Made by a program: the position numbers and the translations under genes. Below are positions 12,438-30,728 of a DNA stretch of 64,000 bases, piece after piece. The DNA lies in the NCBI GenBank assembly GCA_913055565.1, contig CAJXKP010000002.1:1-64000 (forward strand), written 5' to 3'. The DNA is from an uncultured Ectothiorhodospiraceae bacterium (GTDB taxonomy: Bacteria; Pseudomonadota; Gammaproteobacteria; Nitrococcales; Nitrococcaceae). The notes beneath the pieces were generated by a model. That model saw only the letters and a program-made list of their open reading frames with translations, was not told the origin of the DNA and made no database searches. Every line of letters starts with the position of its first letter. The stretch's first letter is position 1.

Positions 12438-14795
12438 CTACATCTTCAATCGCTCTTTTTTGGGGTCGAAATGGGGGAAGGGGACGACGGTTGCCGGTAG
12501 GCGCTTCTGCTGGCCGTCGAGCTTGCCGACCTCCAGGCGAGTGCCGGATGCGGTGTATTCAACCGAGGCCCGGCAGAGGGCGATATTCTTGCTCAGAATC
12601 GGGGAGCGCACGCCGCTGGTGACGACGCCGACCTTTTGCCGGCCGACATAGACGCAGTCGCCATGATCCACGGGCTCGTCGGCGTCGATCTCGAGCCCGA
12701 CGAGTTGGCGCTGCGGCGCCATCCGACGGCGGGCGAGGGCGTCCGATCCGATGAAGGCATCCGTCTTGTTCTTGGGCACGACGAAGCCGATGCCCGCCTC
12801 GAAGGGGTCGGTTTGATCATCGAATTCGTGGTCCGCGGCCACCAGGCCGGCCTCGATGCGCAGCATGTCCATGGCAGCGGTTCCCATGGGCGTCACACCG
12901 AGATCGGCGCCCGCCTGCTCGATCTCGCGCCAAATCGTGTCGGCGTCGTCGGGATGGCAGAACACCTCGTAGCCGAGCTCGCCGGTGTAGCCGGTGCGCG
13001 AGACGATCATCGGCCGCCCATCCTCATGGTGTAGCCGGGCGATAGCGAAACGCATGAGGCCCATCTCCGTTACGGTGGGCTGATCGGGGCGGGTCCAGAC
13101 GATGCGCTCGAGGATCTCGCGGCTCCGTGGGCCTTGGACCGAGACGTTGTGCAGCTGATCGGTGGCGGTCTTGATGATGACGTTAAAGCCGCCCTCGTTC
13201 GCCTGCTCCCGCAACCAGTCCCCGCAGTAGTCACTGCCGCTGACCCAGCGGAAGTTATCGCGCCCGAGCCGGAAGAGGGTGCCGTCATCGATGATGGTGC
13301 CATTGGTGTAGCTCAGAACGGCGTAGCTGATCTGCCCGGTACCCAGGCGCCGGACATCGCGGGTAAAGCAATACTGACACAATACCTCGGCGTCGGGCCC
13401 CATGATCTCGAACTTGCGGAGGGCGGAGAGGTCGATCATGGCGGCCTGCTCGCGGCACGCCCAGTATTCCGTGGTGGCGCCGTACTGTGGGAAATCGACA
13501 GGCAGCCAATAACCGTTGACCTCGCCGAAGTTTCGGGTCAGTTGCGATGTGCGGGCATGGAAGCCGGTCTCCCGGGTCATGACTACCTCCGAGTCGGGGC
13601 GCGGGCGAAAGCCGATGGCGCGGCGCGCCGCCAGGTTGGATTCGTAAACGCGGACATGGATGTCCGTTGGGCGCCAGCCGTTGGCCGGGTCGATGTCATC
13701 CGGACACGCCGATGACACGCAGACGAGGTCGGTCAGGGCCCGCAGCAGGACGTAATCCCCCGGCCGGGACCACGGCTCGTCCAGCGCCAGGACGTTGTTG
13801 TCGAGCTCAGTGTTGTAGAAGAAATTCATGGACGCCCAGCCGCGCCGCGGCGCCACGTCGTAGGGATCGAGTTCGGCATTGAAGTTATCGGTGCAATTGC
13901 GGTGCCCGAAGTAGCCCATCTCCTCGTAGTACTTGGGATTGCAGGCGAGGGCGAAGGCATCATGGCGGTTGCAGGTGTCCTGCACCGTCTCGACCAGCGG
14001 CTGGAAGTCGGCGTCGTAATACTTGGCGTGCAGCCCCGGCTGCGGCGAGCTCATGCCCATCAGCGTTCGCGTGGTCGTGACATCGAGGCAACGCTCGATC
14101 CCACTCTCTAGTGGCTGGGTTCGGAATGCCTGAAAGTCCGAGCACTGCCGGCCGGCTACATCGATGATCTGGATCCATTGGCCCGCCTTAACCTCGTAGG
14201 CGCGAGCCGTAGCACTGTCGACGCGGATATCCTGTATCGGTTCGGCGAGCGGCTCGGGCAGTGCCTGTTGATCGGCCTCGCCGCGTGCGGGGTCCGCCCG
14301 CTCGACGAAAACGGCCAGATCCGTGGGTGGATTCTGCGCGTCCACCGCCATGGGGCCGCCCACGGCTACCACGACGCACACACCATCAGCCGATGCCGTC
14401 AGTGATGCCTGACCGCCCGCCCGTGTACCGGCGCCCAGGAGACGGCTCGCGCTTGCGCCGTTAGTTGCGAGGCCACGCGCGTGGAGGCGTTCGCGCAACC
14501 GTTTAGCGTCCGGACCGGTCCCGGCCATCAGGCCGTGCAGACCGTCGGCGCTACTATTGGGTTGCTGCTCGAACACGCCGGGATCGGCCCGGCCATTCAC
14601 GAAACCGATGACCTCGGCTGTTTGCTCGCCTTCGATATCGACGATCCGGATTCGATCGCCGGCGAAGATCGCAAAGACCGTCGCCGCGCCGCCCGTCACC
14701 GGGTAGCGCTCAGTGCCCGGCGGTAACACGGGCTCGCCGGGTCGTTGCGTGCGCTCCAGTGGCGTGGCGGCGGGCGACGTTAAAACGCTCGCCAT
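12438..14795 (-). CDS. tdm: Trimethylamine N-oxide demethylase (DUF1989-GcvT fusion)
   Basis: Splits trimethylamine N-oxide into dimethylamine and formaldehyde, with tetrahydrofolate able to take up the formaldehyde. The 785-residue chain has two DUF1989-like segments in its N-terminal half (about 25-170 and 185-400, with Cys in RQCSDFQ, QDTCNRHDAF and VSSACPDD as possible zinc ligands) and a GcvT-type folate-binding domain in the C-terminal half (about 410-770, with SRTGYTGELGYEVF). Length and domain order are those of the Tdm family. GGAG lies before the ATG. It is the last gene of the cupin-dmmA-reductase-demethylase-tmm-tdm operon, next to the tmm that makes its substrate. Confidence 0.9.
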   Translation of the reverse strand: MASVLTSPAATPLERTQRPGEPVLPPGTERYPVTGGAATVFAIFAGDRIRIVDIEGEQTAEVIGFVNGRADPGVFEQQPNSSADGLHGLMAGTGPDAKRLRERLHARGLATNGASASRLLGAGTRAGGQASLTASADGVCVVVAVGGPMAVDAQNPPTDLAVFVERADPARGEADQQALPEPLAEPIQDIRVDSATARAYEVKAGQWIQIIDVAGRQCSDFQAFRTQPLESGIERCLDVTTTRTLMGMSSPQPGLHAKYYDADFQPLVETVQDTCNRHDAFALACNPKYYEEMGYFGHRNCTDNFNAELDPYDVAPRRGWASMNFFYNTELDNNVLALDEPWSRPGDYVLLRALTDLVCVSSACPDDIDPANGWRPTDIHVRVYESNLAARRAIGFRPRPDSEVVMTRETGFHARTSQLTRNFGEVNGYWLPVDFPQYGATTEYWACREQAAMIDLSALRKFEIMGPDAEVLCQYCFTRDVRRLGTGQISYAVLSYTNGTIIDDGTLFRLGRDNFRWVSGSDYCGDWLREQANEGGFNVIIKTATDQLHNVSVQGPRSREILERIVWTRPDQPTVTEMGLMRFAIARLHHEDGRPMIVSRTGYTGELGYEVFCHPDDADTIWREIEQAGADLGVTPMGTAAMDMLRIEAGLVAADHEFDDQTDPFEAGIGFVVPKNKTDAFIGSDALARRRMAPQRQLVGLEIDADEPVDHGDCVYVGRQKVGVVTSGVRSPILSKNIALCRASVEYTASGTRLEVGKLDGQQKRLPATVVPFPHFDPKKERLKM

Positions 14796-14862: not shown

Positions 14863-16230
14863 TCAGGCGGACTGGGTCTTCTGCATGCCGTCCCCGATGT
14901 AGGTGGTCATGCGGTCGTCGAGTGCATACCACCAGTCGGTGTGGTGCGGTGTCGACGTTGTCCCGGTGACCGGCGACTTGAATTGGTAGTGGTCGCGATA
15001 GGTCACGATGTTCTCGTCCTTGTGCTCCTCCCACTGCTTGAACATCTCGCGCGTGAGATCGATATCGAAGGCCGGATAATCGGTCAACTGGGTCATGTCG
15101 GCGATGTGATCGGCCTGGAAGTCGATATCATCGAACGCCCCGTCGAGCTGCGTCTCATACTCGCGCCACTTGCGGTAATCCTGCTCCCGCTCGGTATAGC
15201 CCGGCATCGCAAAACGGCCAATGATGTAGTCCCGCGCCAGCCAGGCCTCGGCATCGAACATGGTGAAGGTGTAGTACTGGTCCTGCATGCCGAGATACAT
15301 CACGTTCGGGTCATCGAGCCAGAACACGCCCTTATAGAGGTTGTCCGGATACAGCCGGTTGCTGGTGGTGAGCTTGAGATCCTCGGCCATGAACGGGAAG
15401 CTGTGTTGGTAGCCGGTGCACAGAATAATGGCGTCGATCTCGCGCGTTGAGCCGTCGCGGAAGTAGGCCGTGGAACCACTCATCTGAGTCAGTTGCGGCA
15501 CCTCCTCGATACCGTCGGGCCAATCGAAGCCCATCGGGCTGGTACGATAGCTGATCGTAATCGGCCCCGAGCCGTACTTCTTGCACTGCAAGGCGATGTC
15601 CTCGGCGGAATAGCTGCTGCCCATAACGAGTAGGCGCTTGCCGACGAACTCGTTGGCATCCCGGAAGTCGTGGGAGTGGAGAATCCGGCCCGGGAAACGG
15701 TCGAAGCCGGGGTATTCCGGGACATTCGGAATGGAGAAATGCCCCGTGCCAACGATGACGTAATCGAAGTACTCCGTCCGGCTGTTGCCGGTATTGAGCT
15801 CCTCGATCGTTACCTCGTAGCCGCTCCCGCTGGTGTCGTTGTCCACCCAGCGCACCGCGGTGTTGTACTGGATGAAGCGACCGACATCGTTCTTCTGGGC
15901 GCGGCCGCTGATGTAGTCATAGAGGACCTCGCGCGGGGGGAACGACGGTATGGCCCGACCGAAGTGGTAATCGAAGCTGTAATCGGCGAATTCCAGCAGT
16001 TCCTTCGGGGCGTTGGACCAGAGATAGCGGTACATGCTGCCGTGCACCGGCTCGCCGAACTCGTCCAGGCCGGTGCGCCAGGTGTAGTTCCACAGGCCAC
16101 CCCAGTAGCTCTGCTTCTCAAAGCATTCCACCTCGGGCGTGGTAGCCCCCTGTTTACGCGCCTCTTCAAAGGCGTGTAGCTGCGCCAGGCCACAAGGCCC
16201 GGCGCCGATGATGGCTACTCGTTCGGTCAT
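14863..16230 (-). CDS. tmm: Trimethylamine monooxygenase (flavin-containing)
   Basis: An FAD and NADPH-dependent monooxygenase converting trimethylamine to trimethylamine N-oxide. The 455-residue protein shows the FAD motif GAGPCG at residues 8-13, the FMO signature FPGRILHSHDF, and the NADPH motif GSSYSAE. MYRYLWSNAPKELLEF and FPPREVLYDY are typical of bacterial Tmm rather than of other FMOs. TGGAGG lies 9 bases before the ATG at 16230; the longer frame upstream has no homologous residues and crosses the previous gene. Its position between the dimethylamine enzyme and tdm supports the assignment. Confidence 0.92.
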   Translation of the reverse strand: MTERVAIIGAGPCGLAQLHAFEEARKQGATTPEVECFEKQSYWGGLWNYTWRTGLDEFGEPVHGSMYRYLWSNAPKELLEFADYSFDYHFGRAIPSFPPREVLYDYISGRAQKNDVGRFIQYNTAVRWVDNDTSGSGYEVTIEELNTGNSRTEYFDYVIVGTGHFSIPNVPEYPGFDRFPGRILHSHDFRDANEFVGKRLLVMGSSYSAEDIALQCKKYGSGPITISYRTSPMGFDWPDGIEEVPQLTQMSGSTAYFRDGSTREIDAIILCTGYQHSFPFMAEDLKLTTSNRLYPDNLYKGVFWLDDPNVMYLGMQDQYYTFTMFDAEAWLARDYIIGRFAMPGYTEREQDYRKWREYETQLDGAFDDIDFQADHIADMTQLTDYPAFDIDLTREMFKQWEEHKDENIVTYRDHYQFKSPVTGTTSTPHHTDWWYALDDRMTTYIGDGMQKTQSA

Positions 16231-16343
16231 GACTGCTAACCTCCACTGCACTGTCGGTCGTTGTTGAGTAGTTCGAGTAACCGGCGATACCAGCAAACGG
16301 CGCGCCAACCGTGCTGGTGCGCCGCAGCTAGTAGCGTTCGCCG

Positions 16344-17408
16344 TTATTCCGGGGCTGCCCCCGGCGTGAGCTCGGCGCCGTCGTCGAACGGCGCTAGGTA
16401 GTCGACGACCATGGGCCGATAGCCGATAAAGCCCTTGTAGTCGGCAAGGTCTTCCGGGAGCGTCTTGATGACGCGGTGCATGCGCTTGGCCCACTTCGGG
16501 ATCGTGACGAGCTCGTTGAGGCTGATCAGATAGCAGCGGATGCTGAATAGGACGGCGTTGCTCCGCGGCAGGCGATAAAGGCTCTGGAGCTCGACGCGTA
16601 GATGGGCGTAATCGCCCACGTTTTCGGGCGTGACGGTGGCGCGGTCGATGCCCCACTTGTGGTAGTTCTCGGGCGAGGTGTCCATGCGCGGATGCACCGT
16701 CATGGTCCAATTCAGCCGGCGTACGGGCTCACCCACGCGAAGATTGAGCAGATATTTCAGCGCGCGCTCGAACACCCCCATCTCATGGGCGCGCGGGACG
16801 GGGCCATGCCACTCATAGAAGTTCATGCCGAGATCGAACTGCAGCGACCAGTCCGCCTGGCACGTGAGCATGCCGCCATCCATGTAGAGCATGTTGTCGC
16901 GCTGGTCATGAAGGGTGAAATCACCCTGGACCTGGCGCGTGATGTACTCGAACGGCTCGTAGGGCAGGGTATCGGGATCGCCGAAGGTGAACGTGTCCTT
17001 AATCCCCAGCAGACGATTCTCCCAGGTCCACTGGTCGCCATCGCGCGTGAGCACGAAGTAGTCCGGATAGTCGGTGGATAGCGACTCCATGAGGAGCTCA
17101 AGCGTGTCCCACTGGGCCGGCATCATGTGCTCGAGTACGGTGCAGCGGCTGGGGTCCTCCGCGAGGACCTTACGGCGCTCCTCAACCTCTGATAGGTAAT
17201 GCTCGTCGATATCGAACGCGGGGGCGTAGGGCGACCCCGCTGGTCCGCCGTTGTGGGGCTCGATGTTCACCGAGTACATGTACGAGTCCTCGGTGAAGGG
17301 GAACGGGAAGCGACGGATCGCTTTCGGACTATTGGCGAATGTGAAGTCGTCCCGGAAGGTCTCAACGGGCTTGACCTCCGGAACCGCAACGCTGGCTTCG
17401 TTACCCAT
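16344..17408 (-). CDS. Haem-dependent oxidative N-demethylase alpha subunit (DUF3445), dimethylamine monooxygenase
   Basis: Catalytic subunit for oxidative demethylation of dimethylamine to methylamine and formaldehyde. The 354-residue protein is a full DUF3445 (HODM alpha, PAS-like haem fold): it has the FPFTEDSYMYSVNI start, the central WTWENRLLGI region, and the RLNWTMTVHPRMDTSPENYHKW stretch split by conserved aromatic residues. GAGGAGG lies 5 bases before the ATG. It follows its probable reductase by 39 bases and precedes tmm. The gene is part of the dmm set known from Ruegeria and Pseudomonas mendocina; I leave the letter open because naming of these subunits differs. Confidence 0.85.
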   Translation of the reverse strand: MGNEASVAVPEVKPVETFRDDFTFANSPKAIRRFPFPFTEDSYMYSVNIEPHNGGPAGSPYAPAFDIDEHYLSEVEERRKVLAEDPSRCTVLEHMMPAQWDTLELLMESLSTDYPDYFVLTRDGDQWTWENRLLGIKDTFTFGDPDTLPYEPFEYITRQVQGDFTLHDQRDNMLYMDGGMLTCQADWSLQFDLGMNFYEWHGPVPRAHEMGVFERALKYLLNLRVGEPVRRLNWTMTVHPRMDTSPENYHKWGIDRATVTPENVGDYAHLRVELQSLYRLPRSNAVLFSIRCYLISLNELVTIPKWAKRMHRVIKTLPEDLADYKGFIGYRPMVVDYLAPFDDGAELTPGAAPE

Positions 17409-17447
17409 AAGTGCCTCCTCGCCGGTTGGCTGATGGCGTTGCTGTAC

Positions 17448-18413
17448 CTATAGATCCAGAACGACGCGATCCGAGCGCGCCCGGGAGACGCAGATCATCA
17501 TGCTACTGTTCCGGGCCTTGGCCTCGTCGGATAGGAAGTGGTCGTTGTGGTCGATGTCGCCTTCCAGCACGGTCTGCTCACACTGGCCACAGGAGCCACC
17601 ACGGCAGGAGCACGACGGCTGGATGCCGGCTTCCTCGATGGCCTCGAGCGCACTGGCGTTCGCCGGTACTTCCACCTCGCGCTGACTTCGCTCAAGGACA
17701 ACCTTGAAGGGTTTACCCGGCGGTGGGGCAGCGAATTCCTCGGAATGGACGTTGCGTGCCGGCCAGCCGAGCTCGGCTGCGGCCTCGTGGACCGCTTGCG
17801 TGAGTCCCGCGGGGCCGCAGACGTAGGCGTGCGTGCCAAGCGGCTGATCGGCCAGGATCGCGGTGGGATCGACATACTGATCGCGCCCACTCTCGTAGAA
17901 GCGGGTCTGATCGCCGAAGCGCGCGGCGAGGCGGTCACGGAACGCGGCCCCCTCGGCGTCGCGATACTGATAATGCAGCTCGTAAGCGAGGCCGCGCTGG
18001 CGTAGCTCGTGGAGCTGGGCCAGGAAGGGGGTGATACCGATGCCACCGGCGATGAGCACGTGGCGGGGTGCTGTGACCGTGAGCGGGAACAGGTTGGCCG
18101 GGCCCGAGATGGTCATCTCGTCGCCCTCGCGTACCCGCTCGTGCATGTACTGCGCCCCGCCACGGCCCTGATCATCACACCGCACCGATATCTGGTAGGC
18201 GCTGGGGTAGTCCTCAGGCGGCGACATGAGCGAGTAGGGATTGCGATAGGTCCGCTCACCGCCGCGCATCTCGACGACGATGTGGCTACCGCCCGAGAAG
18301 GAGGGTAGGGGGGCACTATCCTCGCGCTCGAACGTGAAGGTCTTGATCGACGGCGTTACCCGCTCGACGCCGGTGACCCGCACCGGGATCTTGGCTTGCT
18401 GTGACAGGATCAT
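17448..18413 (-). CDS. Ferredoxin-NAD(P)H reductase subunit of the N-demethylase
   Basis: Carries electrons from NAD(P)H to the haem demethylase. The 321-residue protein has a FAD-binding ferredoxin-reductase domain (about 1-105), an NAD-binding domain (about 110-220, GGIGITPFLAQLHEL), and a C-terminal plant-type [2Fe-2S] domain with CRGGSCGQC and a later Cys in MMICVSRAR. This is the phthalate-dioxygenase-reductase order. The start codon overlaps the stop of dmmA (ATGA), so the two are translationally coupled. The family also serves other oxygenases; the partner is inferred from the operon. Confidence 0.87.
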   Translation of the reverse strand: MILSQQAKIPVRVTGVERVTPSIKTFTFEREDSAPLPSFSGGSHIVVEMRGGERTYRNPYSLMSPPEDYPSAYQISVRCDDQGRGGAQYMHERVREGDEMTISGPANLFPLTVTAPRHVLIAGGIGITPFLAQLHELRQRGLAYELHYQYRDAEGAAFRDRLAARFGDQTRFYESGRDQYVDPTAILADQPLGTHAYVCGPAGLTQAVHEAAAELGWPARNVHSEEFAAPPPGKPFKVVLERSQREVEVPANASALEAIEEAGIQPSCSCRGGSCGQCEQTVLEGDIDHNDHFLSDEAKARNSSMMICVSRARSDRVVLDL

Positions 18414-19012
18414 GGCTCTAGCTCCTCAGGTTCCGGGACTTCCCCCGGTGCCTCGGCATCCACACACACGCCCTGATAAACGCCCCAGCGGCGTGAGAAG
18501 TGATCGCGAACGAAAAGATGCAGCTCGCAGCCCGGGCACTGGTAGATCGTGGTACTAACGCGCCAGGCCGTCGTCTTGCAGTGGACGCAGATCACCGATC
18601 GGCCCATGAGGCCGCACCGCTCGCGCTGGATGGCGGCCTCTGCCATGCCCAGCTCGCGCGCGGCCCGGATGACCGCCCAGATGAACGGCTCACTGCCGGC
18701 CACGTACATCCGTGTGCCCATGCGGGCGTCACGCAGTACGCCCTGCATGGCTGTAATCACGTCTTCGAGTTGGGCGCTTATGGTTGGGGTCGGGTAGCGG
18801 GCCGCCGTTAGCGTGCTTGAGTGGTCGCTCCCGTCGCCCGGCGTATAGAGCACCGTTATGGTGTCCTCATTTGCCGTGCCGATCAGGCCATCCAGCGTGC
18901 GAGCCAATGACCCCGCCCCGTCAGCCTCACCGATCAGCAAGTGCTGACGTGCTGAGGTGTCCGGCTCAAGACCCGGGTAGTTCGGTTTGCTTTTAATGCC
19001 AGGTTCTGACAT
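18410..19012 (-). CDS. dmmA: Dimethylamine monooxygenase subunit, DmmA family
   Basis: A 200-residue accessory subunit of dimethylamine monooxygenase. The N-terminal part has no motif I can name. The C-terminal part has a zinc-ribbon-like pair of knuckles, CVHCK and CPGC, about 15 residues apart (near residues 143-162), as in the DmmA family. I place the start at 19012 because GAGG lies 9 bases upstream; another ATG 21 bases earlier has no ribosome-binding site. It overlaps the reductase by four bases. Exact biochemical role is not known to me. Confidence 0.78.
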   Translation of the reverse strand: MSEPGIKSKPNYPGLEPDTSARQHLLIGEADGAGSLARTLDGLIGTANEDTITVLYTPGDGSDHSSTLTAARYPTPTISAQLEDVITAMQGVLRDARMGTRMYVAGSEPFIWAVIRAARELGMAEAAIQRERCGLMGRSVICVHCKTTAWRVSTTIYQCPGCELHLFVRDHFSRRWGVYQGVCVDAEAPGEVPEPEELEP

Positions 19013-19087
19013 AGCGGCTGTCCTCACATGCATGGCTTCCGGGATCGCGGTGTCTACGACCGCGAATCCGCATGGGGAGGGAGGGCC

Positions 19088-20084: not shown

Positions 20085-20100
20085 TGGCATGGGGGTTGCA
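20085..20100 (+). promoter_or_regulatory. Sigma-54 promoter of amt1
   Basis: TGGCATGGGGGTTGCA is a near-perfect -24/-12 promoter. The predicted start is about 20111. Confidence 0.8.
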
Positions 20101-20103
20101 TAC

Positions 20104-20129
20104 ATGTTTCATGGCGAAACTATGTTTCG
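20104..20129 (+). promoter_or_regulatory. GAAAC-N3-GTTTC operator of amt1
   Basis: CGAAACTATGTTTCG (20115-20129) is a perfect inverted repeat centred near +12. A further half-site ATGTTTC (20104-20110) precedes it, so two dimers could bind side by side. Confidence 0.65.
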
Positions 20130-20171
20130 TTGAAAGAAATGCCGCTATCGAAGCCTTGCAGGAGAGGTCCG

Positions 20172-21470
20172 ATGGAAGCTGAGTTGAACGAACTGCAGTC
20201 GACGGTCCAGCTGATGAGCTCCATCAGCATGGAGATGTTCTATTGGTGGTGTACCGCTTTGATGATCATCATCCACGCGGGATTTCTGGCCTACGAAATG
20301 GGCGCTTCGCGCGTCAAAAACTCACTCGCCGCCGGCGTTAAGAACATCCTGGCGCTTGCCTACCTGATTCCCGCCTTCTATTTCTTCGGGTGGTGGATCT
20401 ACAGCGCGTTCCCGGGCGGTTTCACGATCGCCGAGGGGGCCTCGGCGGCGGCGCCATGGAGCGCGAGCATGGGCCCCAACCTCGAGAGTAAGGGCACCGG
20501 TATCTTCTGGGCCGCGTTTACCCTGTTCGGGGCTACCACGGCATCGATCTTCTCGGGCGCTGTGATCGAACGGATTCGGCTGAGTGCCTTCGTCATCCTG
20601 GCGGTCTTGCTAGGTGGCGCCGTCTGGATCCTAGGCGGCGCCTGGGGATGGCACCCGGATGGCTGGATGCTGAATCAGCTGGGCTACCACGATATCGGTG
20701 CCGCCGGCGTCGTCCACACCGTAGCCGGGTTCTTCGCCCTCGGCGTGCTGTTCAACCTGGGGCCGCGTGTCGGCAAGTACGGTGCGGGCGGCAAGATTAA
20801 TGATATCCCGCCTCATAACCTGCCCATGGCCATCATCGGCCTGATGCTGATCATCGTCGGCTTCTTCGGCTTCCTGGGTGGCTGCATTATCTACAACGTG
20901 GGCAGCGACTGGACGACAATCTACGGCAACCCGTCCAATCTGTCGGCCTTCGGCTTTAACACCCTTATGGGCTTTGCGGGCGGTGTCATCGGTGCGTATG
21001 CCATTACCCGTGAGCCGTTCTGGATGATGTCCGGCGCTCTGGCCGGGATCATCTCGGCGGCGGCCGGTCTCGATGTCTACTACCCGCCGGTCGCGTTCGT
21101 GGTGGCGTTCCTTGGCGGTCTCATCGTTCCCGCCTCGGGCCGGCTTATCGAGCGTTGGGGTATCGACGATGCCGTCGGCGCGGTCGCCGTACACGGTGTT
21201 GCCGGGTTCTGGAGCCTGGTTGCCTCGGGGATCTTCCTCCATGGCTACCCCAACGTTGGGGGTGCCCCGGATATCACCTTCTGGGGTCAAACGATCGGTG
21301 GCGTGGTGATGGTGCTGCTAGGGCTTATTCCGGGGTACTTCGCGTCCCTGGGTCTTAAGGCCTGCGGCATCCTGCGTGTGCCGTATGAGGTGGAAGAGGC
21401 GGGTCTCGATCAGGTTGAGATCCCCTCGGAGCCCTATCCGGAGACCGTTCCGCGGGCATCGAGCCAGTAA
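20172..21470 (+). CDS. Ammonium/methylammonium transporter, Amt family (copy 1)
   Basis: An inner-membrane channel of 432 residues with eleven expected membrane segments. The twin-histidine pore motifs are present as HTVAGFFAL and HGVAGFWSL, and the first membrane helix region is MEMFYWWCTALMIIIHAGF. There is no separate signal peptide. The C-terminal tail (PYEVEEAGLDQVEIPSEPYPET) is acidic and unlike that of E. coli AmtB. Start at 20172 follows GGAGAGG; an upstream ATG in frame lies before the binding site. Position in the methylamine island and its promoter suggest methylammonium uptake, but ammonium cannot be excluded. No glnK accompanies it. Confidence 0.9.
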   Translation: MEAELNELQSTVQLMSSISMEMFYWWCTALMIIIHAGFLAYEMGASRVKNSLAAGVKNILALAYLIPAFYFFGWWIYSAFPGGFTIAEGASAAAPWSASMGPNLESKGTGIFWAAFTLFGATTASIFSGAVIERIRLSAFVILAVLLGGAVWILGGAWGWHPDGWMLNQLGYHDIGAAGVVHTVAGFFALGVLFNLGPRVGKYGAGGKINDIPPHNLPMAIIGLMLIIVGFFGFLGGCIIYNVGSDWTTIYGNPSNLSAFGFNTLMGFAGGVIGAYAITREPFWMMSGALAGIISAAAGLDVYYPPVAFVVAFLGGLIVPASGRLIERWGIDDAVGAVAVHGVAGFWSLVASGIFLHGYPNVGGAPDITFWGQTIGGVVMVLLGLIPGYFASLGLKACGILRVPYEVEEAGLDQVEIPSEPYPETVPRASSQ

Positions 21471-21559
21471 TCGGCGTTAGCAAGACCGAGGTCGTCGCCT
21501 GCTTGAGGCAGCGGCGGCCTCGCCAGTGAGCAACCGTGAGCGTTGAAAGGAGTGTAACG

Positions 21560-21763
21560 ATGAGTCCAATCAGTGACTGGGAAGGGGCGAGTGTTGTCTT
21601 CACCTTTGGTGCCGACTCCGTGGGCATGTGGCTCTCGCTGGCCGTGGCCCTAGGGATCGGGGTCGGCGTAATCGCTCGCATGATCCGTGACGAGAACCGA
21701 ACCTTCGCCTCGCAGTCTCCCAATCTCACCCAGCGTGGTGCCCTGGAGGGGGCCAACATCTAA
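21560..21763 (+). CDS. 67-residue membrane protein paired with Amt (copy 1)
   Basis: A small protein with one clear membrane helix (about residues 20-39: VGMWLSLAVALGIGVGVIAR) and a polar tail ending NLTQRGALEGANI. GGAG lies 8 bases before the ATG. It is too long and too well kept to be chance: a near-identical copy follows amt2 with substitutions that are mostly synonymous or conservative (for example SQSPN to SHSPN, VGMW to VGVW). I do not recognise a family. A role as a small subunit or regulator of the transporter is an inference from position. Confidence 0.82.
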   Translation: MSPISDWEGASVVFTFGADSVGMWLSLAVALGIGVGVIARMIRDENRTFASQSPNLTQRGALEGANI

Positions 21764-21787
21764 TCCTTCCGGTTGAAGGATCAGCTC

Positions 21788-21820
21788 GACAGCTCCGCCT
21801 TGTGCGGAGCTGTCTTCGTT
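21788..21820 (+). terminator. Terminator after amt1 unit
   Basis: An 11-bp perfect stem (GACAGCTCCGC, 21788-21798, with GCGGAGCTGTC, 21804-21814), 5-base loop, then TTCGTT. The T-run is short, but an equivalent hairpin ends the second unit. Confidence 0.75.
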
Positions 21821-22099
21821 TGGGGTCGGGCAGCCAGGGAACCGCTCAGCGCTGGCGCGCTGCCACGATCATCTCGTCAGTTGACATGCTGCCCCGCGAG
21901 GCAGCCCGTTACCTTCACTGGTGCCTGTTGGGCCATCAGGGTGCACAGCCCTCCCGTGAGTTCGCTCAGAACTCGGCGTAACACCCCGCTAACGAGTCAC
22001 AAGCCGAGCAGCTGCTCGGCTCCTAGTTGTGGCGAAAACCCCGATGGCTGGGGACTTACTCCCGCCTTGTGACGTCTTTGCCTGGCAAGGGCGGGGGCG
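21821..22099. other. Spacer between amt1 and amt2 units
   Basis: No gene is seen. One GGTGCA half-site (21940-21945), about 155 bases before the amt2 -24 box, could be part of an NtrC enhancer; a single half-site is weak evidence. Confidence 0.4.
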
Positions 22100-22115
22100 T
22101 GGCACGCTGTTTGCT
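22100..22115 (+). promoter_or_regulatory. Sigma-54 promoter of amt2
   Basis: TGGCACGCTGTTTGCT matches the full consensus TGGCACG-N4-TTGCW. The predicted start is about 22126. Confidence 0.88.
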
Positions 22116-22127
22116 TAGTATCGCCTT

Positions 22128-22144
22128 ACGAAACTATGTTTCGT
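22128..22144 (+). promoter_or_regulatory. GAAAC-N3-GTTTC operator of amt2
   Basis: ACGAAACTATGTTTCGT is a perfect inverted repeat with 7-bp arms, centred near +11. It is the best copy of the motif in the window. Confidence 0.68.
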
Positions 22145-22186
22145 GAAAATAATTAACGCATTTGAGCTTTGCTACGGGGGTGTCCC

Positions 22187-23485
22187 ATGGAAGCCGAGTT
22201 GAACGAGCTGCAGTCGACGGTCCAGCTGATGAGCTCCATCAGCATGGAGATGTTCTATTGGTGGTGTACCGCCTTAATGGTATTAATCCACGCCGGGTTC
22301 CTTGCTTATGAGATGGGTGCCTCGCGCGTTAAGAACTCGCTGGCCGCTGGCGTTAAGAATATCCTCGCGCTGGCGTACATCATCCCGGCCTTCTACTTCT
22401 TCGGGTGGTGGATCTACAGCGCGTTCCCTGGCGGTTTTACGATCGCCGAGGGGGCCTCAGCGGCGGCGCCATGGAGTGCGAGCATGGGCCCCAACCTCGA
22501 GAGTAAGGGGACCGGTATCTTCTGGGCCGCGTTTACCCTGTTCGGGGCCACCACGGCATCGATCCTCTCGGGTGCCGTTATCGAGCGCATCCGGCTGAGT
22601 GCCTTCATCATCCTGGCGGTGCTACTAGGCGGCGCCGTCTGGATCCTCGGTGGCGCCTGGGGTTGGCACCCGGATGGCTGGATGCTGAATCAGCTGGGCT
22701 ACCACGATATCGGTGCCGCTGGCGTTGTCCACGCCGTGGCCGGGTTCTTCGCCCTCGGCGTGCTGTTCAACCTGGGCCCGCGTGTCGGCAAATACGGTGC
22801 GGGCGGCAAGATTAACGATATCCCACCTCATAACCTGCCCATGGCGGTCATCGGCCTGATGCTGATCATCGTCGGCTTCTTCGGCTTCCTAGGTGGCTGC
22901 ATTATCTACAACGTGGGCAGCGACTGGACAACCATCTACGGCAACCCGTCCAATCTGTCGGCCTTCGGCTTTAACACCCTTATGGGCTTTGCGGGCGGTG
23001 TCATCGGGGCATACACCATGGCCCGTGAGCCGTTTTGGATGGTCTCAGGGGGCCTCGCCGGCATTATCTCGGTGGCCGCCGGTCTCGACGTCTACTACCC
23101 ACCGATCGCGTTCGCCGTGGCGTTTGCGGGCGGCCTGCTGGTCCCGGCCTCGGGGTGGTTGCTCGAGCGCGTTGGTATCGATGATGCGGTTGGTGCCGTT
23201 CCGGTCCACGGCTTCGCCGGATTCTGGAGCCTGATTGCCTCGGGGATCTTCCTTCATGGCTACCCCAACGTCGGTGGCGCCCCGGATGTGACCTTCTGGG
23301 GCCAGGCCATTGGTGCTCTGGTGATGGCAGCGCTGGGGCTTATTCCCGGCTATTTGGTGTCCCTGGTCTTAAAGAGCCTCGGCGTTCTACGCGTGCCCTA
23401 TGAGGTCGAAGAGGCCGGTATCGATCAGATCGAGATCCCCTCGGAGCCCTATCCGGAGACCATGCCGCGGGGTTCGAGCCAGTAA
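22187..23485 (+). CDS. Ammonium/methylammonium transporter, Amt family (copy 2)
   Basis: A 432-residue paralogue of the copy 2 kb upstream, identical in length and nearly identical in sequence through residue 300. The pore histidines are kept (HAVAGFFAL, HGFAGFWSL). Differences gather in the last third, for example IAFAVAFAGGLLVPASGWLLERVG against VAFVVAFLGGLIVPASGRLI. The ATG follows a weak binding site (GGGGGTGTCCC). Two co-regulated carriers may differ in affinity or in ammonium versus methylammonium preference. Confidence 0.9.
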   Translation: MEAELNELQSTVQLMSSISMEMFYWWCTALMVLIHAGFLAYEMGASRVKNSLAAGVKNILALAYIIPAFYFFGWWIYSAFPGGFTIAEGASAAAPWSASMGPNLESKGTGIFWAAFTLFGATTASILSGAVIERIRLSAFIILAVLLGGAVWILGGAWGWHPDGWMLNQLGYHDIGAAGVVHAVAGFFALGVLFNLGPRVGKYGAGGKINDIPPHNLPMAVIGLMLIIVGFFGFLGGCIIYNVGSDWTTIYGNPSNLSAFGFNTLMGFAGGVIGAYTMAREPFWMVSGGLAGIISVAAGLDVYYPPIAFAVAFAGGLLVPASGWLLERVGIDDAVGAVPVHGFAGFWSLIASGIFLHGYPNVGGAPDVTFWGQAIGALVMAALGLIPGYLVSLVLKSLGVLRVPYEVEEAGIDQIEIPSEPYPETMPRGSSQ

Positions 23486-23574
23486 TCGGCGTTGGTAGAC
23501 GTTAGGCCGTCGGCTGCCTACGGCAGCGGCGGCCTAGCCAGTGAGCAACCGTCAGCGACGACAGGAGTGTAACG

Positions 23575-23778
23575 ATGAGTCCAATCAGTGACTGGGAAGG
23601 TGCGAGCGTTGTCTTCACCTTTGGTGCCGATTCTGTGGGTGTCTGGCTGTCATTGGCCGTGGCCCTGGGGATCGGCGTGGGCGTGATCGCTCGCATGATC
23701 CGTGACGAGAACCGAACCTTTGCCTCGCATTCGCCCAATCTCACGCAGCGGGGTGCCCTGGAGGGGGCCAATATCTAA
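23575..23778 (+). CDS. 67-residue membrane protein paired with Amt (copy 2)
   Basis: A near-identical copy of the small protein that follows amt1, at the same 89-base distance from its Amt gene and with the same AGGAGTGTAACG leader before ATG. One membrane helix and the tail ending RGALEGANI are kept. Conservation of both length and end in two diverging copies argues for selection at protein level. Confidence 0.82.
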   Translation: MSPISDWEGASVVFTFGADSVGVWLSLAVALGIGVGVIARMIRDENRTFASHSPNLTQRGALEGANI

Positions 23779-23800
23779 TCGTTCCAATCTAGGGTCGGCC

Positions 23801-23835
23801 CGACAGCTCCGCCCGGCGCGGAGCTGTCGTCGTTT
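23801..23835 (+). terminator. Terminator after amt2 unit
   Basis: A 12-bp perfect stem (CGACAGCTCCGC with GCGGAGCTGTCG, ending at 23829), 5-base loop, then TCGTTT. It parallels the hairpin after the first unit. Confidence 0.75.
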
Positions 23836-24470: not shown

Positions 24471-25712
24471 ATGCCGTTACGATTAATCAAACTGGGATTG
24501 AAGGGGACCAAGGATGAGCCACGCTTCTTTCCGCCCAGTAAGGAACTGGAGTCGCATTACGACGTCGTCATCATCGGTGGGGGCGGTCACGGGTTGGCCT
24601 GCGCGTATTACCTTGCGCGGGATCATGGCATCCGCAATGTGGCCGTACTGGAACAGGGGTACCTCGGGGGCGGTAATACGGGCCGCAACACCACGATCGT
24701 CCGCTCCAATTACCTGACCCCGGAAGGCGTTAAGTTCTACGACGCCAGCCTCCGACTGTTCCAAGACCTATCCACCGATCTCGACATCAATCTGTTCTAC
24801 TCGACCCGAGGGCACTTCACGCTCGCCCACTCGGACGATGCCATGCGGACGATGCGCTGGCGTGCCGAGGTCAATAAGCATTACGGCGTGGATAGTGCCG
24901 TGGTGGACCGCCAGGCGGTCGCCGACGCCGTACCGGGTATCGATCTGGAGTGCGGCGGCTCGCCATCGGTGATGGGCGCCCTTTATCACGCCCCGGGAGC
25001 GGTAGCCCGACACGACGCCGTGGCATGGGGCTACGGGCGCGCGGCGGCCCAGCGGGGTGTGGAATTGCACCAAAAGACCCGGGTTACCGGGATCCAGCAG
25101 CAGGGCGGCCGCGTGGTGGGTGTCGACACCGACCGCGGATCGATCAGTTGCGGTGCGGTCGTCTCCATGGTTGCCGGATCGACGCCTCGCATCGCGGATA
25201 TGGTCGGCCTGCCGACACCCATCGAGGTCTTCCCGCTCCAGGCCTGTGTAACGGAGCCGGTCAAGCCGTTCCTCAACACGATCGTCGTCTCCGGCAGCCT
25301 CCATGTCTACGTCAGCCAGTCCTCGCGTGGCGAGTTGGTTATGGGATCGGCCGTCGATCCCATGGTGCTGCATTCGACGCGCTCGACGTTCGAGTTCGTT
25401 GAGGGGCTGGCCGATCACATGGTCGACCTACTGCCGTTTACGGCGCGCATGCGGGTCAACCGTCAGTGGGCAGGGATGAGCGATATGACCCCGGACTTCG
25501 CACCGATTATGGGCACGACGCCGCTCGACGGCTTCTACCTTGATGCCGGCTGGGGGACTTGGGGCTTCAAGGCAACGCCTATTAGCGGCAAGACCATGGC
25601 GGCGACGGTGGCCAACGGCGTCAACGACGAGCTGATCGAGCCGTTCCGCTACAGCCGGTTCGCCGATTTCCAAATGGTGGCGGAGAAAGGCGCCGCCTCA
25701 GTGGGGCATTAA
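24471..25712 (+). CDS. mgdA: N-methylglutamate dehydrogenase subunit A (SoxB-like)
   Basis: FAD-binding subunit of the enzyme that oxidises N-methylglutamate to glutamate and formaldehyde or methylene-folate. The 413-residue protein has the dinucleotide motif VVIIGGGGHGLACAYYLA (residues 31-48) and the SoxB-type region GGGNTGRNTTIVRSNY, in which the flavin is attached in sarcosine oxidases. The C-terminal motif GWGTWGFKATPISGK is typical. It is first of eight genes in one direction with short gaps or overlaps. On its own it could be called sarcosine oxidase beta; gmaS and mgsABC downstream decide for N-methylglutamate. Confidence 0.92.
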   Translation: MPLRLIKLGLKGTKDEPRFFPPSKELESHYDVVIIGGGGHGLACAYYLARDHGIRNVAVLEQGYLGGGNTGRNTTIVRSNYLTPEGVKFYDASLRLFQDLSTDLDINLFYSTRGHFTLAHSDDAMRTMRWRAEVNKHYGVDSAVVDRQAVADAVPGIDLECGGSPSVMGALYHAPGAVARHDAVAWGYGRAAAQRGVELHQKTRVTGIQQQGGRVVGVDTDRGSISCGAVVSMVAGSTPRIADMVGLPTPIEVFPLQACVTEPVKPFLNTIVVSGSLHVYVSQSSRGELVMGSAVDPMVLHSTRSTFEFVEGLADHMVDLLPFTARMRVNRQWAGMSDMTPDFAPIMGTTPLDGFYLDAGWGTWGFKATPISGKTMAATVANGVNDELIEPFRYSRFADFQMVAEKGAASVGH

Positions 25713-25716
25713 GGCT

Positions 25717-25989
25717 ATGAAACATATCGACTGTCCGGGCATTGGCCCGCGACCCATCGTTGAATTTATCTACGACGGCGAGGTGCGACCGCCGGCGCCG
25801 GAAGACGCTTCCCTGGAGGTCCTGGCCGACCGGGTATTCAACCGTTCTGGCGCACCGGGTGTGCTGCGCGAGTGGTGGTACCACCGGCCCACGGGGAGTT
25901 GGTACGTGCTCGAGCGCGACACCGTTACCAACGAGATCCAGCGCGCCGTCGATCCCGAGGAGGTGGCCTATGCCATTCCGATGCTCTGA
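25717..25989 (+). CDS. mgdB: N-methylglutamate dehydrogenase subunit B (SoxD-like)
   Basis: A 90-residue delta-like subunit. It keeps the family pattern CPGIGPRPIVEF at the start and REWWYHRPTGSWYVLERDT, WYHRxxGxxxWF-type, in the middle. Sarcosine oxidase delta normally has several zinc-ligand Cys residues; only one Cys remains here, so it probably lacks the zinc site. It begins 4 bases after mgdA and overlaps mgdC by 20 bases. Confidence 0.88.
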   Translation: MKHIDCPGIGPRPIVEFIYDGEVRPPAPEDASLEVLADRVFNRSGAPGVLREWWYHRPTGSWYVLERDTVTNEIQRAVDPEEVAYAIPML

Positions 25990-28867
25990 CGCGGGTTCGC
26001 GCGAATGGATCGACCGCTCGCGTCGAATCGAGTTTAGCTTTGAGGGCCGGCGCTACAGCGCGCATCCGGGCGACACCATCACATCGGCGTTGCTCGCCAA
26101 TGGGGTAGTGGTGCTTGGGCGGAGCTTTAAGTATCACCGCCCGCGCGGTGCGTTCTCGCTGGCCAATCACGACATTAACGCTCTGTTCAGCACCGCCGAG
26201 GATACGAATATTCGCGGTGACGTGACGCCGGTGGAAGACGGCATGGCGCTGGAGGCCGTCAACGTCCGCGGCACTGCGGCCCGTGATAAGGATCGCTACC
26301 TCGATTGGTTCGGGCGTTTCATGCCGGTGGGCTTCTACTACAAGGCCTTCCATCGCCCCAAGGCGCTGTTCCCGTGGTTCGAGAAGGCGATCCGGCAGCG
26401 TGCCGGACTTGGAACCGTGGACACCTATTGGCGCCCGCGCCGCCGGCCCAAACGCTACGCGCATTGCGATGTGCTCGTCATCGGGGCTGGGCCGTCGGGG
26501 ATGACAGCGGCCCTCGAGGCGGCCGAGGCCGGTCTTGAGGTGCTGCTGGTCGACGAGAATCCGCACATCGGTGGAAGCCTCGATTACCAGTGGCCGCTGG
26601 ATACCGCTGAGGCGGCCTGCCCATCGCTCGCGGAACGGGTGGCGGCGCATAGCGGCATAACGGTGCAAACCAAGGCGCTTGCGGTGGCGTATTACGCCGG
26701 CCAGTGGGTCCCGGTGGCGACGGATGAGGGCATTATTAAGGTGTGTGCCCGCGGGATTGTCGTTGCGACCGGGCTGCTGGAGCAGCCGCCCATTTGCCGC
26801 AACAACGATCGTCCGGGCGTGCTGCTGGCCTCCGGGGCGCAGCGCTTGCTGCGTCGTTTTGGGGTGGCGCCGTGCCAGCGGGCCGTTGTCCTGACGGCAA
26901 ACGCCGAGGGCTATCAGGCGGCGCTCGATCTGCAGTATGCCGGTGTTGAGGTGGCCGCGGTGGCAGCACTTACCGAGGCGGGAGCGGATTCGGAGGCCGC
27001 CGCCGCGCTGACGGAGGCCGGTGTGCCTCGTCTCGCGCATCACGCGCTCTACCAGGTGCACGGCGACAACACGGTCACGGGCGCCAGGCTCGGGCCGATC
27101 GACGGCAGTGACGCTGATGCGCAGGACTACGATTGCGATGGCGTCATCGTGAGCACCGGGTGGGCACCGGCGGCCCATCTGTTGCACGAGGCCGGCGGTA
27201 AGGTTCGCTACGACACCGAGCTTGCCATGCACGTGCCGTCCTCCTGGCCGGCATCCGTTGTCCCGGCTGGTCGCGTTAATGGCGCGTTCACCCTTGCCCA
27301 ACAGACCGCCGACGCCGTTAACGCGGCCCGACGACTGGTAGCGGCCCTGACTGGCGCGACGGTGCCGGCGGTCGAGGATTGGCGGGACCATCAGCCGCAT
27401 AGCGCGGAATGGCCGATCGTGCGGCATTCACGGGCGCGGGAATTCGTGGATCTGGACGAGGATCTCCAGCTCAAGGACCTGGAGCAGGCCGCCCGAGAGG
27501 GCTTCGACAATATCGAGTTGATGAAGCGCTTCTCGACGGTGGGCATGGGGCCGAGCCAGGGCAAGCACTCGAACATCAACGCCATCCGTATCCTGGCGGC
27601 GAGTAACGGTCAGGGCATGGATGCGACCGGTAGTACAACGGCGCGTCCGATGTACCACCCGGTGCGCATGGAGGATCTGGCGGGCCGCCGATTCCGCCCG
27701 CAGCGCTATACGCCGATCCACGACCGGCACGTTGCGCTATCCGGTTGCCTCTTCGAGGCGGGGCCATGGCTTCGCGTGGGCCATTACGGTGATGAGGCCA
27801 GCGCTGACGACTGCGTTGCCGCGGAGGTGAATACCGTGCGCAACGGTGTGGGTCTGATCGATGTATCCACGCTCGGCAAGATTGAGGTGGTAGGCCCCGA
27901 TGCGGCCCGGCTGCTGGAGGGCACGTATACCGCCCGGATGGCGAACGCCAAGGTCGGTGCCACCCGCTACGCGCTCATGGTCGACGACACCGGCGTGATC
28001 ATCGATGACGGCGTTGTGGGTCGGCTGGCCGAGGACCACTACTACCTCACTGCGGGCAGCGGTCACGCCGCCGCGACGGCGCGCACCCTCAAGCGGCATG
28101 CCGTGGAATGGGGTCTGGACGCCCATGTCGTGGATCGCACCGGGCAGCTGGGCGCGCTCAACCTGGCTGGCCCCTTGAGTCGGTCGGTGCTGGCCCGGGT
28201 CAGTGATATGCCCCTCGATGAGGCGTCTTTCCCCTACCTGAATATCCGCGAGACGCGGCTTTGTGGCTATCCGGTACGCCTGTTGCGGGCCGGATTCGTG
28301 GGCGAACTGGCCTTCGAGATCCACATGCCCGCCGCCGGCATGGGCGCCGTCTGGGATGCCCTGATGAGGGCCGGCGCTGACGCCGGTATTGCGCCGTTCG
28401 GTGTCGATGCCCAACGCATCCTCAGGCTCGAGAAGGGACACATCATCGTCGGCCAGGACACCGACGGCCTGACGACGCCGTTCGATGCCGGGATGTCATG
28501 GGCGGTTCATCTCAAGAAGCCGTTCTTCAAGGGTCGCGGTGCATTGGCGCACCTCAAAGGCAAGTCGCCCAAACGACTCGTGGCGTTCGCGCTACCCACG
28601 GGCTATGAGGGGCCGCTGCCACGTGAATGCCACCTAGCCATCCGGGACGGCGACATCGTCGGCCGCGTGACCAGTATTGCCCGTAGCCCGACGCTCGGGC
28701 GGCCCATTGGCCTGGCCATGATCGAGCGCGGCCTGGTCGAGGACGACGCGTTGCTAACGCTGCGCGTCGATAACGGGCAATACATCACAGCGGAGCGGGT
28801 CCGCGCCCCATTCTACGATCCGGACGGTGAACGTCAGCGGGTCGCTAGCGAGGAGGTCAATTCATGA
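25970..28867 (+). CDS. mgdC: N-methylglutamate dehydrogenase subunit C (SoxA-like)
   Basis: The large 965-residue subunit. An N-terminal 2Fe-2S-like fold without the cysteine set (about 15-100) leads to an FAD/NAD-binding region with VLVIGAGPSGMTAALEAAEAG (about 165) and GRVNGAFTLAQQTADAVNAAR (about 430). The last 400 residues form a GcvT-type folate-binding domain with GFVGELAFEIHMP. That domain probably passes the methyl-derived carbon to tetrahydrofolate. ATG at 25970 was chosen because GAGGAGG lies just upstream and the length fits SoxA; the longer frame reads through mgdB out of frame. Confidence 0.93.
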   Translation: MPFRCSDAGSREWIDRSRRIEFSFEGRRYSAHPGDTITSALLANGVVVLGRSFKYHRPRGAFSLANHDINALFSTAEDTNIRGDVTPVEDGMALEAVNVRGTAARDKDRYLDWFGRFMPVGFYYKAFHRPKALFPWFEKAIRQRAGLGTVDTYWRPRRRPKRYAHCDVLVIGAGPSGMTAALEAAEAGLEVLLVDENPHIGGSLDYQWPLDTAEAACPSLAERVAAHSGITVQTKALAVAYYAGQWVPVATDEGIIKVCARGIVVATGLLEQPPICRNNDRPGVLLASGAQRLLRRFGVAPCQRAVVLTANAEGYQAALDLQYAGVEVAAVAALTEAGADSEAAAALTEAGVPRLAHHALYQVHGDNTVTGARLGPIDGSDADAQDYDCDGVIVSTGWAPAAHLLHEAGGKVRYDTELAMHVPSSWPASVVPAGRVNGAFTLAQQTADAVNAARRLVAALTGATVPAVEDWRDHQPHSAEWPIVRHSRAREFVDLDEDLQLKDLEQAAREGFDNIELMKRFSTVGMGPSQGKHSNINAIRILAASNGQGMDATGSTTARPMYHPVRMEDLAGRRFRPQRYTPIHDRHVALSGCLFEAGPWLRVGHYGDEASADDCVAAEVNTVRNGVGLIDVSTLGKIEVVGPDAARLLEGTYTARMANAKVGATRYALMVDDTGVIIDDGVVGRLAEDHYYLTAGSGHAAATARTLKRHAVEWGLDAHVVDRTGQLGALNLAGPLSRSVLARVSDMPLDEASFPYLNIRETRLCGYPVRLLRAGFVGELAFEIHMPAAGMGAVWDALMRAGADAGIAPFGVDAQRILRLEKGHIIVGQDTDGLTTPFDAGMSWAVHLKKPFFKGRGALAHLKGKSPKRLVAFALPTGYEGPLPRECHLAIRDGDIVGRVTSIARSPTLGRPIGLAMIERGLVEDDALLTLRVDNGQYITAERVRAPFYDPDGERQRVASEEVNS

Positions 28868-29340
28868 ATGTGAGTGTGTCGAGCCGTGGGGGCCTTGATC
28901 TCCGACAGCTCGTGGGAGCGGGGGCCGCGGCTTGTCTGCAGGGCGCCGGGTATCCGATCCCAGAGGTTGTCCTGTCGGCGGTGCCGTGCAGCGGCGGCTT
29001 CGTTGCCCGCACAGGCCACGACGAGTTCCTGGTGGCCGCCGATGAAGCGCCCCAGCTATCGGCGGCGTCCCCGCCCTGGTGCTTTCAGCGCTCGGATCAT
29101 CTGATCGAGCTGACCGGGCCGGATTGGGCGCAGGCGCTGACTGCTGTTTGCCCTCACGACCTGCGGGCCCTGGGTGGCGACGCTTGGCTCATGGCCACCG
29201 TGGCCGGTGTCGATGTCTGGCTGCGAACCGGCCCCGACTCCTCGGGCGGTTTGCTGATCGGTTGCGACCCCTCGTATGGCCATTACCTCGAGACGACGTT
29301 ACGCGAGGTCGTCTCCGAGACCGAATCCCTTAAGCAGTAA
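28864..29340 (+). CDS. mgdD: N-methylglutamate dehydrogenase subunit D (SoxG-like)
   Basis: A 158-residue gamma-like subunit that overlaps mgdC by ATGA. Visible family features are the FQRSDHLIELTGPDWAQALT region and the C-terminal GCDPSYGHYLETTLREV. SoxG proteins share the aminomethyltransferase fold and are structural partners. The length is shorter than SoxG of sarcosine oxidase (about 190-200), as often in Mgd. Confidence 0.88.
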   Translation: MNVSVSSRGGLDLRQLVGAGAAACLQGAGYPIPEVVLSAVPCSGGFVARTGHDEFLVAADEAPQLSAASPPWCFQRSDHLIELTGPDWAQALTAVCPHDLRALGGDAWLMATVAGVDVWLRTGPDSSGGLLIGCDPSYGHYLETTLREVVSETESLKQ

Positions 29341-29360: not shown

Positions 29361-30695
29361 ATGGTATCGAGTGACGTAAAACAAGTAATTGAGGATAACG
29401 AGGTTCGTTTCGTCCTCGCCCAGTTCGTTGATATCCACGGTGTCGCCAAGACGAAATCCGTGCCCGCCGATTGCGTCGATAACATCGTTGAGGATGGTGC
29501 CGGCTTCGCAGGCTTTGCCGTCTGGGGCATGGGCATCGAGCCTCATGGCCCGGATTTCATGGCGCGGGGCGATACCCGAACGCTGACCCCTATCCCTTGG
29601 CAGCCGGGCTACGCGCGCATGGCGTGTACGGGCTATGTCAACGACGAGCCCCATCCCTACGACTCGCGCTACGTCCTGCAGCGCCAAATGGCACGCCTGA
29701 CGGAGCGCGGCTGGACCTTCAATACGGGCGTCGAGCCCGAGTTCTCGCTGTTCGTTCGCGACTGCAACGGCCAGCTCCAGCTCGTCGATGAGAGCGATGA
29801 CCTGGAGAAGCCTTGCTACGACTACAAGGGGCTTTCTCGGGCGCGGCACTTCCTCGAGGATCTGGTCTCAAGCCTCCAGCAGATCGGCTACGGCGTCTAC
29901 CAGATCGATCATGAGGACGCTAACGGGCAGTTCGAGATCAATTACACCTATAGCGAGGCGCTGACGTCCGCGGATCGATTCGTCCTGCTGCGCATGGCGG
30001 CCGGTGAGATCGCGAATAACCACGGCATGATCTGCTCGTTCATGCCTAAGCCCGCGTCGAACCGTACCGGTAATGGCATGCACTTCCATATGTCCATTAC
30101 CGATGAACAAGGCCGTAACGTCTTCGGCGACGATAGCGATCCGCAGGGTATGGGCCTGTCCCAGACCGCGTATCAGTTTCTCGGCGGTTTGCTGGAACAC
30201 GCGCCGGCGCTTTGCGCCTTTGCGTGCCCGACCGTGAATTCCTACAAGCGCCTCGTTGTCGGCGGGTCGAATTCTGGATCCACCTGGGCGCCCGTCTATA
30301 TTACGTACGGCGACAATAATCGCTCGGCGATGGTGCGCGTACCCTATGGGCGGCTTGAGTTCCGGCTGCCGGACGCCGGTTGTAATCCCTACTTGGTTAC
30401 CGCAGCGCTGATCGCGGCCGGTCTGGACGGGGTGGATCGGCAACTCGATCCCGGCCCGGCGCAGAACATCAATCTCTACGATCTCTCCGAGGCCGAGCGT
30501 CGTGATACGGGCATCGGGCTCCTGCCTCAGAACATCAACGAGGCGGTGGATGCCTTGGAGGCCGATGGCCTATTCCGAGATGCATTGGGCAAAGAGATCG
30601 TGGACGAATTCGTGCGAATCAAGCGTGATGAATGGATCGAGTACAGTCGCCATGTCTCCGACTGGGAAGTCCAGAACTACGCCGAGTTCTTCTGA
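29361..30695 (+). CDS. gmaS: Gamma-glutamylmethylamide synthetase (glutamine synthetase family)
   Basis: Joins glutamate and methylamine using ATP, the first committed step of the pathway. The 444-residue protein has the N-terminal beta-grasp (about 1-100, with [14 protein letters not shown]) and the catalytic domain with [31 protein letters not shown] and [13 protein letters not shown]. These place it in the GlnA-type III group rather than in nitrogen-assimilating GlnA. AAAGGAGCC lies before the ATG. Its place between mgdABCD and mgsABC makes the substrate assignment firm. Confidence 0.93.
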
Positions 30696-30728
30696 ATCTC
30701 GATACGGCACGGAGCGGGAGTTAAAGCG

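Follow-up and report, generated by a model that had tools for sequence, protein, structure and literature searches.

The 64,000-nt stretch of DNA analyzed here (contig CAJXKP010000002.1 from an uncultured Ectothiorhodospiraceae bacterium; "the window") carries two tandem copies of a unit in which a gene encoding an Amt-family transporter is followed by a gene encoding a 67-residue single-helix membrane protein. With somewhat better than even confidence, we favor the explanation that the small protein is an obligate single-helix subunit of transporters from a divergent Amt subfamily with small organic amines as substrates. The Amt–small protein partnership itself is strongly supported by genome comparison, and the pattern of sequence conservation identifies the small protein as a real, conserved, and previously unnamed family. 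The broader proposition, that a Pseudomonadota superclade of "ammonium transporters," including those of small, streamlined marine alphaproteobacteria resembling SAR11, consists of two-subunit organic-amine carriers with an unnamed small subunit family, we regard as evenly balanced.

Direct reading of the sequence confirms the arrangement described in the initial annotation, in which each amt is followed at the same distance by a small single-helix gene and then by a hairpin (Table 1). The distance from the Amt stop codon to the ATG of the small gene is exactly 89 nt in both units. The unit 1 hairpin has an 11-bp stem (GACAGCTCCGC and GCGGAGCTGTC) followed by TTCGTTT; the stem in unit 2 is identical and was read directly, this hairpin having too few T residues for the hairpin scanner. 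The two small proteins differ at two residues (M23V and Q52H), and NG86 comparison of the two copies yields nonsynonymous (dN) and synonymous (dS) distances of 0.017 and 0.46 for the small genes (dN/dS 0.037) and 0.053 and 0.50 for the Amt genes (dN/dS 0.106). Both genes are under purifying selection, and the small-gene ratio is far from the value near one that the initial annotation had named as speaking against its proposal. The near-equal dS values of the small genes and the Amts indicate that the pair was probably duplicated as one unit. No PF00909 genes besides these two partner-bearing Amts were found in the source genome, and the organism thus appears to lack a canonical Amt, in a genome that is about 94% complete. 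The reported absence of GlnK from the locus is borne out, as the sole P-II gene of the genome sits on a different contig. The nearest Amts to those of the window are from Halovibrio, Vreelandella, and Salinisphaera; this affiliation, together with the absence of the small protein from all 58 related genomes examined, suggests that the unit was probably gained by horizontal transfer between halophiles.

A close-relative search of 84,980 species genomes using the small protein sequence as query returned no match; using the Amt as query instead retrieved 80 loci and exposed the small-protein family. All 80 Amt homologues, found by Amt similarity, are followed by a profile-confirmed small open reading frame (ORF) of 54 to 69 residues, usually positioned 2 to 90 nt after the Amt gene. 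The family is characterized by the pattern SPITSWEGAxAYFTFADxP, a hydrophobic helix, and HENxAF, with much of the conservation residing in the short N-terminal segment and a C-terminal tail of variable length (a few residues up to about 40); two members (L050 and L079) diverge in the N-terminal motif and leave this architecture unchanged. An AlphaFold2 model of copy 1 consists of a short helix (residues 7–16) and a long helix (residues 21–65) with a mean pLDDT of 81. Lysine and arginine residues average 0.25 per protein on the N-terminal side of the helix versus 2.6 on the C-terminal side, a distribution that makes an N-out/C-in topology likely. The initial annotation recognized no family, and this holds up in every search: no match to Pfam or NCBIfam above a curated cut-off was obtained for any of 53 members or for the sister type described below, and the small protein has neither a sequence nor a fold match in the PDB. 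Weak matches to DUF3185, CoaP_CTERM, and NdhQ in these databases were dropped as below cut-off or as reflecting helix composition only, and BPSL3393, a published small ethanolamine protein, was set aside because it has been characterized as a CoA-binding protein of 11 kDa. Public plasmid records label the small protein "hypothetical protein" and its neighbor "ammonium transporter"; a plasmid search with the gammaproteobacterial small-protein type gave no match, and using the sister type or the Amt as query retrieved annotated examples from Rhodobacterales and Pseudomonas.

Linkage of this family to one kind of Amt is exclusive throughout the sampling, all of which lies within Pseudomonadota. 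Profile scans with the small protein, made without reference to Amt, gave 17 matches, and every one directly follows an amt. They come from 6 further genomes among 370 scanned at class level and 11 among 397 scanned at phylum level, and these frequencies are lower bounds because scoring was restricted to the best candidates in each genome. Homologues located away from amt genes, which the initial annotation had specified as contrary evidence, were not found in these scans, and we identified no true absence of the small gene in the 127 loci tested. A simple ORF rule is passed by 123 of the 127; two of the remaining four (L006 and L070) are contig ends, and in the other two (L161 and L163) the small gene was found by profile. 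By comparison, none of 29 canonical Amts from the same genomes has a small membrane ORF downstream, and partner-bearing Amts in the scanned genomes score 184 to 226 bits against PF00909, versus about 290 to 404 bits for full-length canonical Amts. An Amt-profile search of 387 Alphaproteobacteria added further partner-bearing Amts and a sister branch. The small gene is present in all of the new alphaproteobacterial members, some of which come from 1.2- to 1.4-Mb genomes that look SAR11-like in size and gene content. Sister-branch Amts carry a related small protein at the same place (SWAVDL..IGAIYPFQG, helix, H..Q.RAEN), which aligns with the main type at 91% probability in a single hhalign comparison (E 1e-6). 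In the Amt tree, the two partner-bearing branches together split from canonical Amts with support of 100/100, at a point where long branches meet. The duplicated pair noted in the initial annotation stands as an observation, but its scope is far wider than was proposed there, extending to an Amt clade across Pseudomonadota and to an ethanolamine-linked branch. The exclusive amt linkage and the low dN/dS likewise lend support to its suggestion of a new small subunit or regulator of Amt-type carriers.

As to which of these two roles applies, GlnK is encoded within 1.5 kb of 16 of the 29 canonical Amts but of none of the 80 partner-bearing Amts, as would be anticipated if the small protein were a gating or inhibitory regulator that replaces GlnK rather than a structural subunit. 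The C-terminal tail of partner-bearing Amts is also unlike that of canonical Amts, with GLD retained, and the small protein has a predicted cytoplasmic tail after its helix. However, much of its conservation lies in the N-terminal segment and not in this tail, which varies widely in length and harbors no recognizable sensor domain, and we consider a regulator of this type improbable, though worth keeping in mind. A role as an assembly or membrane-insertion factor outside the mature transporter seems still less probable. The strict downstream position would suit cotranslational assembly, particularly in the many Methylophaga and Marinomonas genomes in which the small gene starts 2 nt past the Amt stop codon, but canonical Amts of the same genomes manage without such a protein. 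Nothing in the computational data distinguishes an assembly factor from a stable subunit.

The Amts themselves combine a conventional scaffold with altered substrate sites. Both window Amts match PF00909 over their full length, with 201.8 and 208 bits against a gathering score of 23.2, but fall far short of the TIGR00836 cut-off (194.5 and 203.3 versus 343.3). Scores of 171 and 182 bits against TIGR03644, the marine-subtype Amt, rule out assignment to that type (cut-off 514), and the sister branch (155 bits) and a Thioclava member (186 bits) are also below this cut-off. The twin-His motif, Asp160, Trp148, and the Phe gate (F107/F215) are retained in all 129 partner-bearing Amts compared. With AmtB residue numbers assigned by offset from AfAmt1, the same 129 sequences uniformly harbor C at the S219 position, F at Q104, and A at F103; the W212 position is F, with one L, and the N216 position is L or Y, invariant or nearly so within the clade. 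In AmtB, the S1 site is formed by S219, W148, and F107 and the S2 site by F215, W212, and H168, and the S219A substitution gives more methylammonium uptake (PMC10433425). The S1/S2 changes could be what a switch from NH4+ to R-NH3+ substrates looks like.

The genomic neighborhood of partner-bearing Amts is dominated by amine catabolism. Amine genes are found within 5 to 8 kb in 87 of 97 loci: 61 have methylamine-route genes, 24 have EutBC, frequently together with EutR, and 2 carry both; of the other 10, which have neither, 3 are short contigs. Within 1.5 kb, methylamine genes accompany 35 of 80 partner-bearing Amts versus 2 of 29 canonical Amts, and EutBC accompanies 24 of 80 versus 0 of 29. 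Ethanolamine-linked Amts fall mostly into one sub-branch, such that only about three context switches are needed on the tree, and the small gene persists across them; its fixed partner is thus the Amt and not the enzymes. The location of the small gene within amine-degrading clusters had raised the idea that it anchors neighboring enzymes to the membrane, with amt adjacency incidental; since it follows the Amt whatever the enzymes, including at loci with no such enzymes nearby, this idea is largely refuted, and we give it very little credence. In L039, L040, L041, L009, and others, the Amt and small gene lie beside EutR-EutBC (ethanolamine ammonia-lyase), which suggests a carrier for ethanolamine that differs from both EutH and the Eat permease. 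A partner-bearing Amt near urease genes (UreC and UreF; L008:1288-4144) represents a third nitrogen-compound context. The putative "methylammonium carrier" of the initial annotation is favored by gene context and by the substrate-site changes.

A constant small partner beside amine-gene-linked Amts, unchanged whether the neighbors are tmm/dmm/gmaS, eutBC, or urease, points to what are probably two-part carriers for small organic amines. We infer topology, physical binding, substrate, and mode of action of the pair as follows. Each unit would encode a two-component transporter composed of a divergent Amt and an obligate one-helix accessory subunit, with the conserved N-terminal aromatic motif (SW-E-G..Y-F-T-F-A-D) of the latter facing the periplasm and its basic H-E-N tail facing the cytoplasm. 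The small protein would pack on the Amt trimer and complete, stabilize, or tune the transporter, the pore of which, with altered substrate sites, would pass the ammonium ions of small organic amines. The ion would be methylammonium where the cluster resembles that of the window; in the EutBC-linked branch, it would be ethanolammonium or a related amine. Control by GlnK is not part of these operons.

Several points weigh against this model. Covariation between the Amt and the small protein is at most suggestive: it peaks at 2.04 versus a shuffled maximum of 1.67, at an effective sequence number (Neff) of 69 and with phylogeny not removed, and defines no coherent interface. The retained twin-His, Asp160, Trp148, and Phe gate are compatible with NH4+ transport, and since ammonium is a product of both methylamine and ethanolamine catabolism, the gene context could be explained without amine transport. 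The main rival on substrate is accordingly that the pair, in which the small protein would be a subunit, moves ammonium, exporting or recapturing the NH4+ liberated by methylamine or ethanolamine breakdown. The methylamine pathway, EutBC, and urease (L008) contexts are all ammonium releasing, the core NH4+ pore residues are in place, and the source genome has no other Amt; furthermore, methylamine degraders reportedly supply ammonium to diatoms (PMC7574528). On the other hand, the residue changes cluster at the S1/S2 substrate sites, where they are invariant or nearly so, and all 17 other surveyed genomes with a partner-bearing Amt encode 1 to 5 additional PF00909 genes. On balance, we view ammonium as an unlikely but serious candidate for the physiological substrate, and organic amines as the better explanation.

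These proteins can be placed in the context of known systems. Relative to the Amt/Mep/Rh family (AmtB, AfAmt1; PF00909), the window Amts share the full-length profile match, twin-His motif, Asp160, Trp148, and Phe gate, but differ in the sub-cut-off TIGR00836 and TIGR03644 scores and in the changed S1/S2 residues, and partner-bearing Amts differ in having an obligate small partner, no GlnK, and a separate clade. GlnK/P-II, the known Amt regulator, resembles the small protein in being encoded beside its Amt, but is a soluble T-loop protein of ~112 residues rather than a membrane helix and is absent from these operons. In bacteria, some transporters and oxidases have one-helix accessory subunits, such as AcrZ, KdpF, CydX, and CcmD (PMC10903887). 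The small protein likewise is short, has one transmembrane helix, and shows obligate linkage to a transporter gene, much as those genes lie in or near the operon of their partner; it matches none of them in sequence or fold, and the comparison is a functional analogy only. To our knowledge, none of the four is associated with an Amt. A marine methylated-amine cluster figure in the dmmDABC paper contains amtB, treated there only as "ammonia transporter" (PMC5520151), and a Ruegeria relative has a sister-branch Amt beside dmm genes. In the open-access literature searched, we found no small partner of amtB in amine clusters, no reported membrane subunit for Amt/Mep/Rh proteins, and no experimental work on any Amt–small protein pair. 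Amt/Mep/Rh proteins are among the best-studied transporter families, and here a whole clade has a constant membrane partner and changed NH4+-binding sites. If the organic-amine reading is correct, these pairs would supply a missing carrier for methylamines and ethanolamine in marine bacteria, many genes of amine-degrading clusters now labeled "ammonium transporter" would need a new name, and the determinants of Amt selectivity could be studied in a natural system.

Table 1. Features of the tandem Amt units and of the surrounding amine-catabolism genes in the window
Feature	Position	Strand	Basis
Amt copy 1, 432 aa, a divergent Amt of the small-partner clade	20172..21470	+	PF00909 E 2e-59, pore residues, tree
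Amt copy 2, 432 aa, 91% identity with copy 1	22187..23485	+	PF00909 E 3e-61, tree
Small single-transmembrane partner copy 1, 67 aa	21560..21763	+	Conserved family, dN/dS, AlphaFold2 helices
Small single-transmembrane partner copy 2, 67 aa	23575..23778	+	ORF list, dN/dS
Terminator-like hairpin, unit 1	21788..21814	+	Hairpin scan
Terminator-like hairpin, unit 2, stem as in unit 1	23802..23828	+	Read from sequence
Putative palindromic operator GAAACTATGTTTC, upstream of Amt1	20116..20128	.	Site count versus expectation; relatives
Putative palindromic operator GAAACTATGTTTC, upstream of Amt2	22130..22142	.	Site count versus expectation
Trimethylamine N-oxide demethylase (Tdm)	12438..14795	-	NF053776 1143 bits, over cut-off
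Trimethylamine monooxygenase (Tmm)	14863..16236	-	NF058570 746 bits, over cut-off
dmmC, dmmB, dmmA (dimethylamine monooxygenase)	16344..19033	-	PF11927, NF041259, PF22290; dmmB by homology and order
N-methylglutamate dehydrogenase-type cluster (soxB/D/A/G-like)	24471..29340	+	soxB family; homology across loci
gmaS-type glutamine synthetase III and mgsABC	29361..33671	+	TIGR03105, PF00120, PF13522, PF01493, PF01645

As judged from family assignments, the genes flanking the tandem units make up a route from trimethylamine through methylamine to N-methylglutamate. An assignment of the 12438–14795 gene as DmmD was replaced by Tdm on the basis of NF053776; dmmD (aminomethyltransferase family), which usually adjoins dmmABC, is not seen at 12438–19033, and its role may be filled elsewhere. 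A gene for an EutQ-like cupin (19088–19444) lies beside dmmA, and such a gene is also next to the Amt in L071 and L072. A 647-residue ORF at 10440–12383 is a putative copper amine oxidase gene and may encode one more enzyme of amine degradation.

Finally, an identical palindrome, GAAAC-TAT-GTTTC, precedes both units. The sequence GAAACNNNGTTTC is exact at both Amt promoters, and copies that differ from it at one position lie close to the promoters of dmm (19470) and mgd (24228); allowing at most one mismatch, the window contains 5 sites versus 0.55 expected. Across related loci totaling 0.84 Mb, the exact palindrome is found four times, in each case 56 to 75 nt before the Amt of one of the four nearest relatives (L003–L006). 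This distribution suggests that a methylamine regulator probably uses the palindrome as its operator; the XRE-cupin gene at 33717–34421 is a candidate for this regulator.

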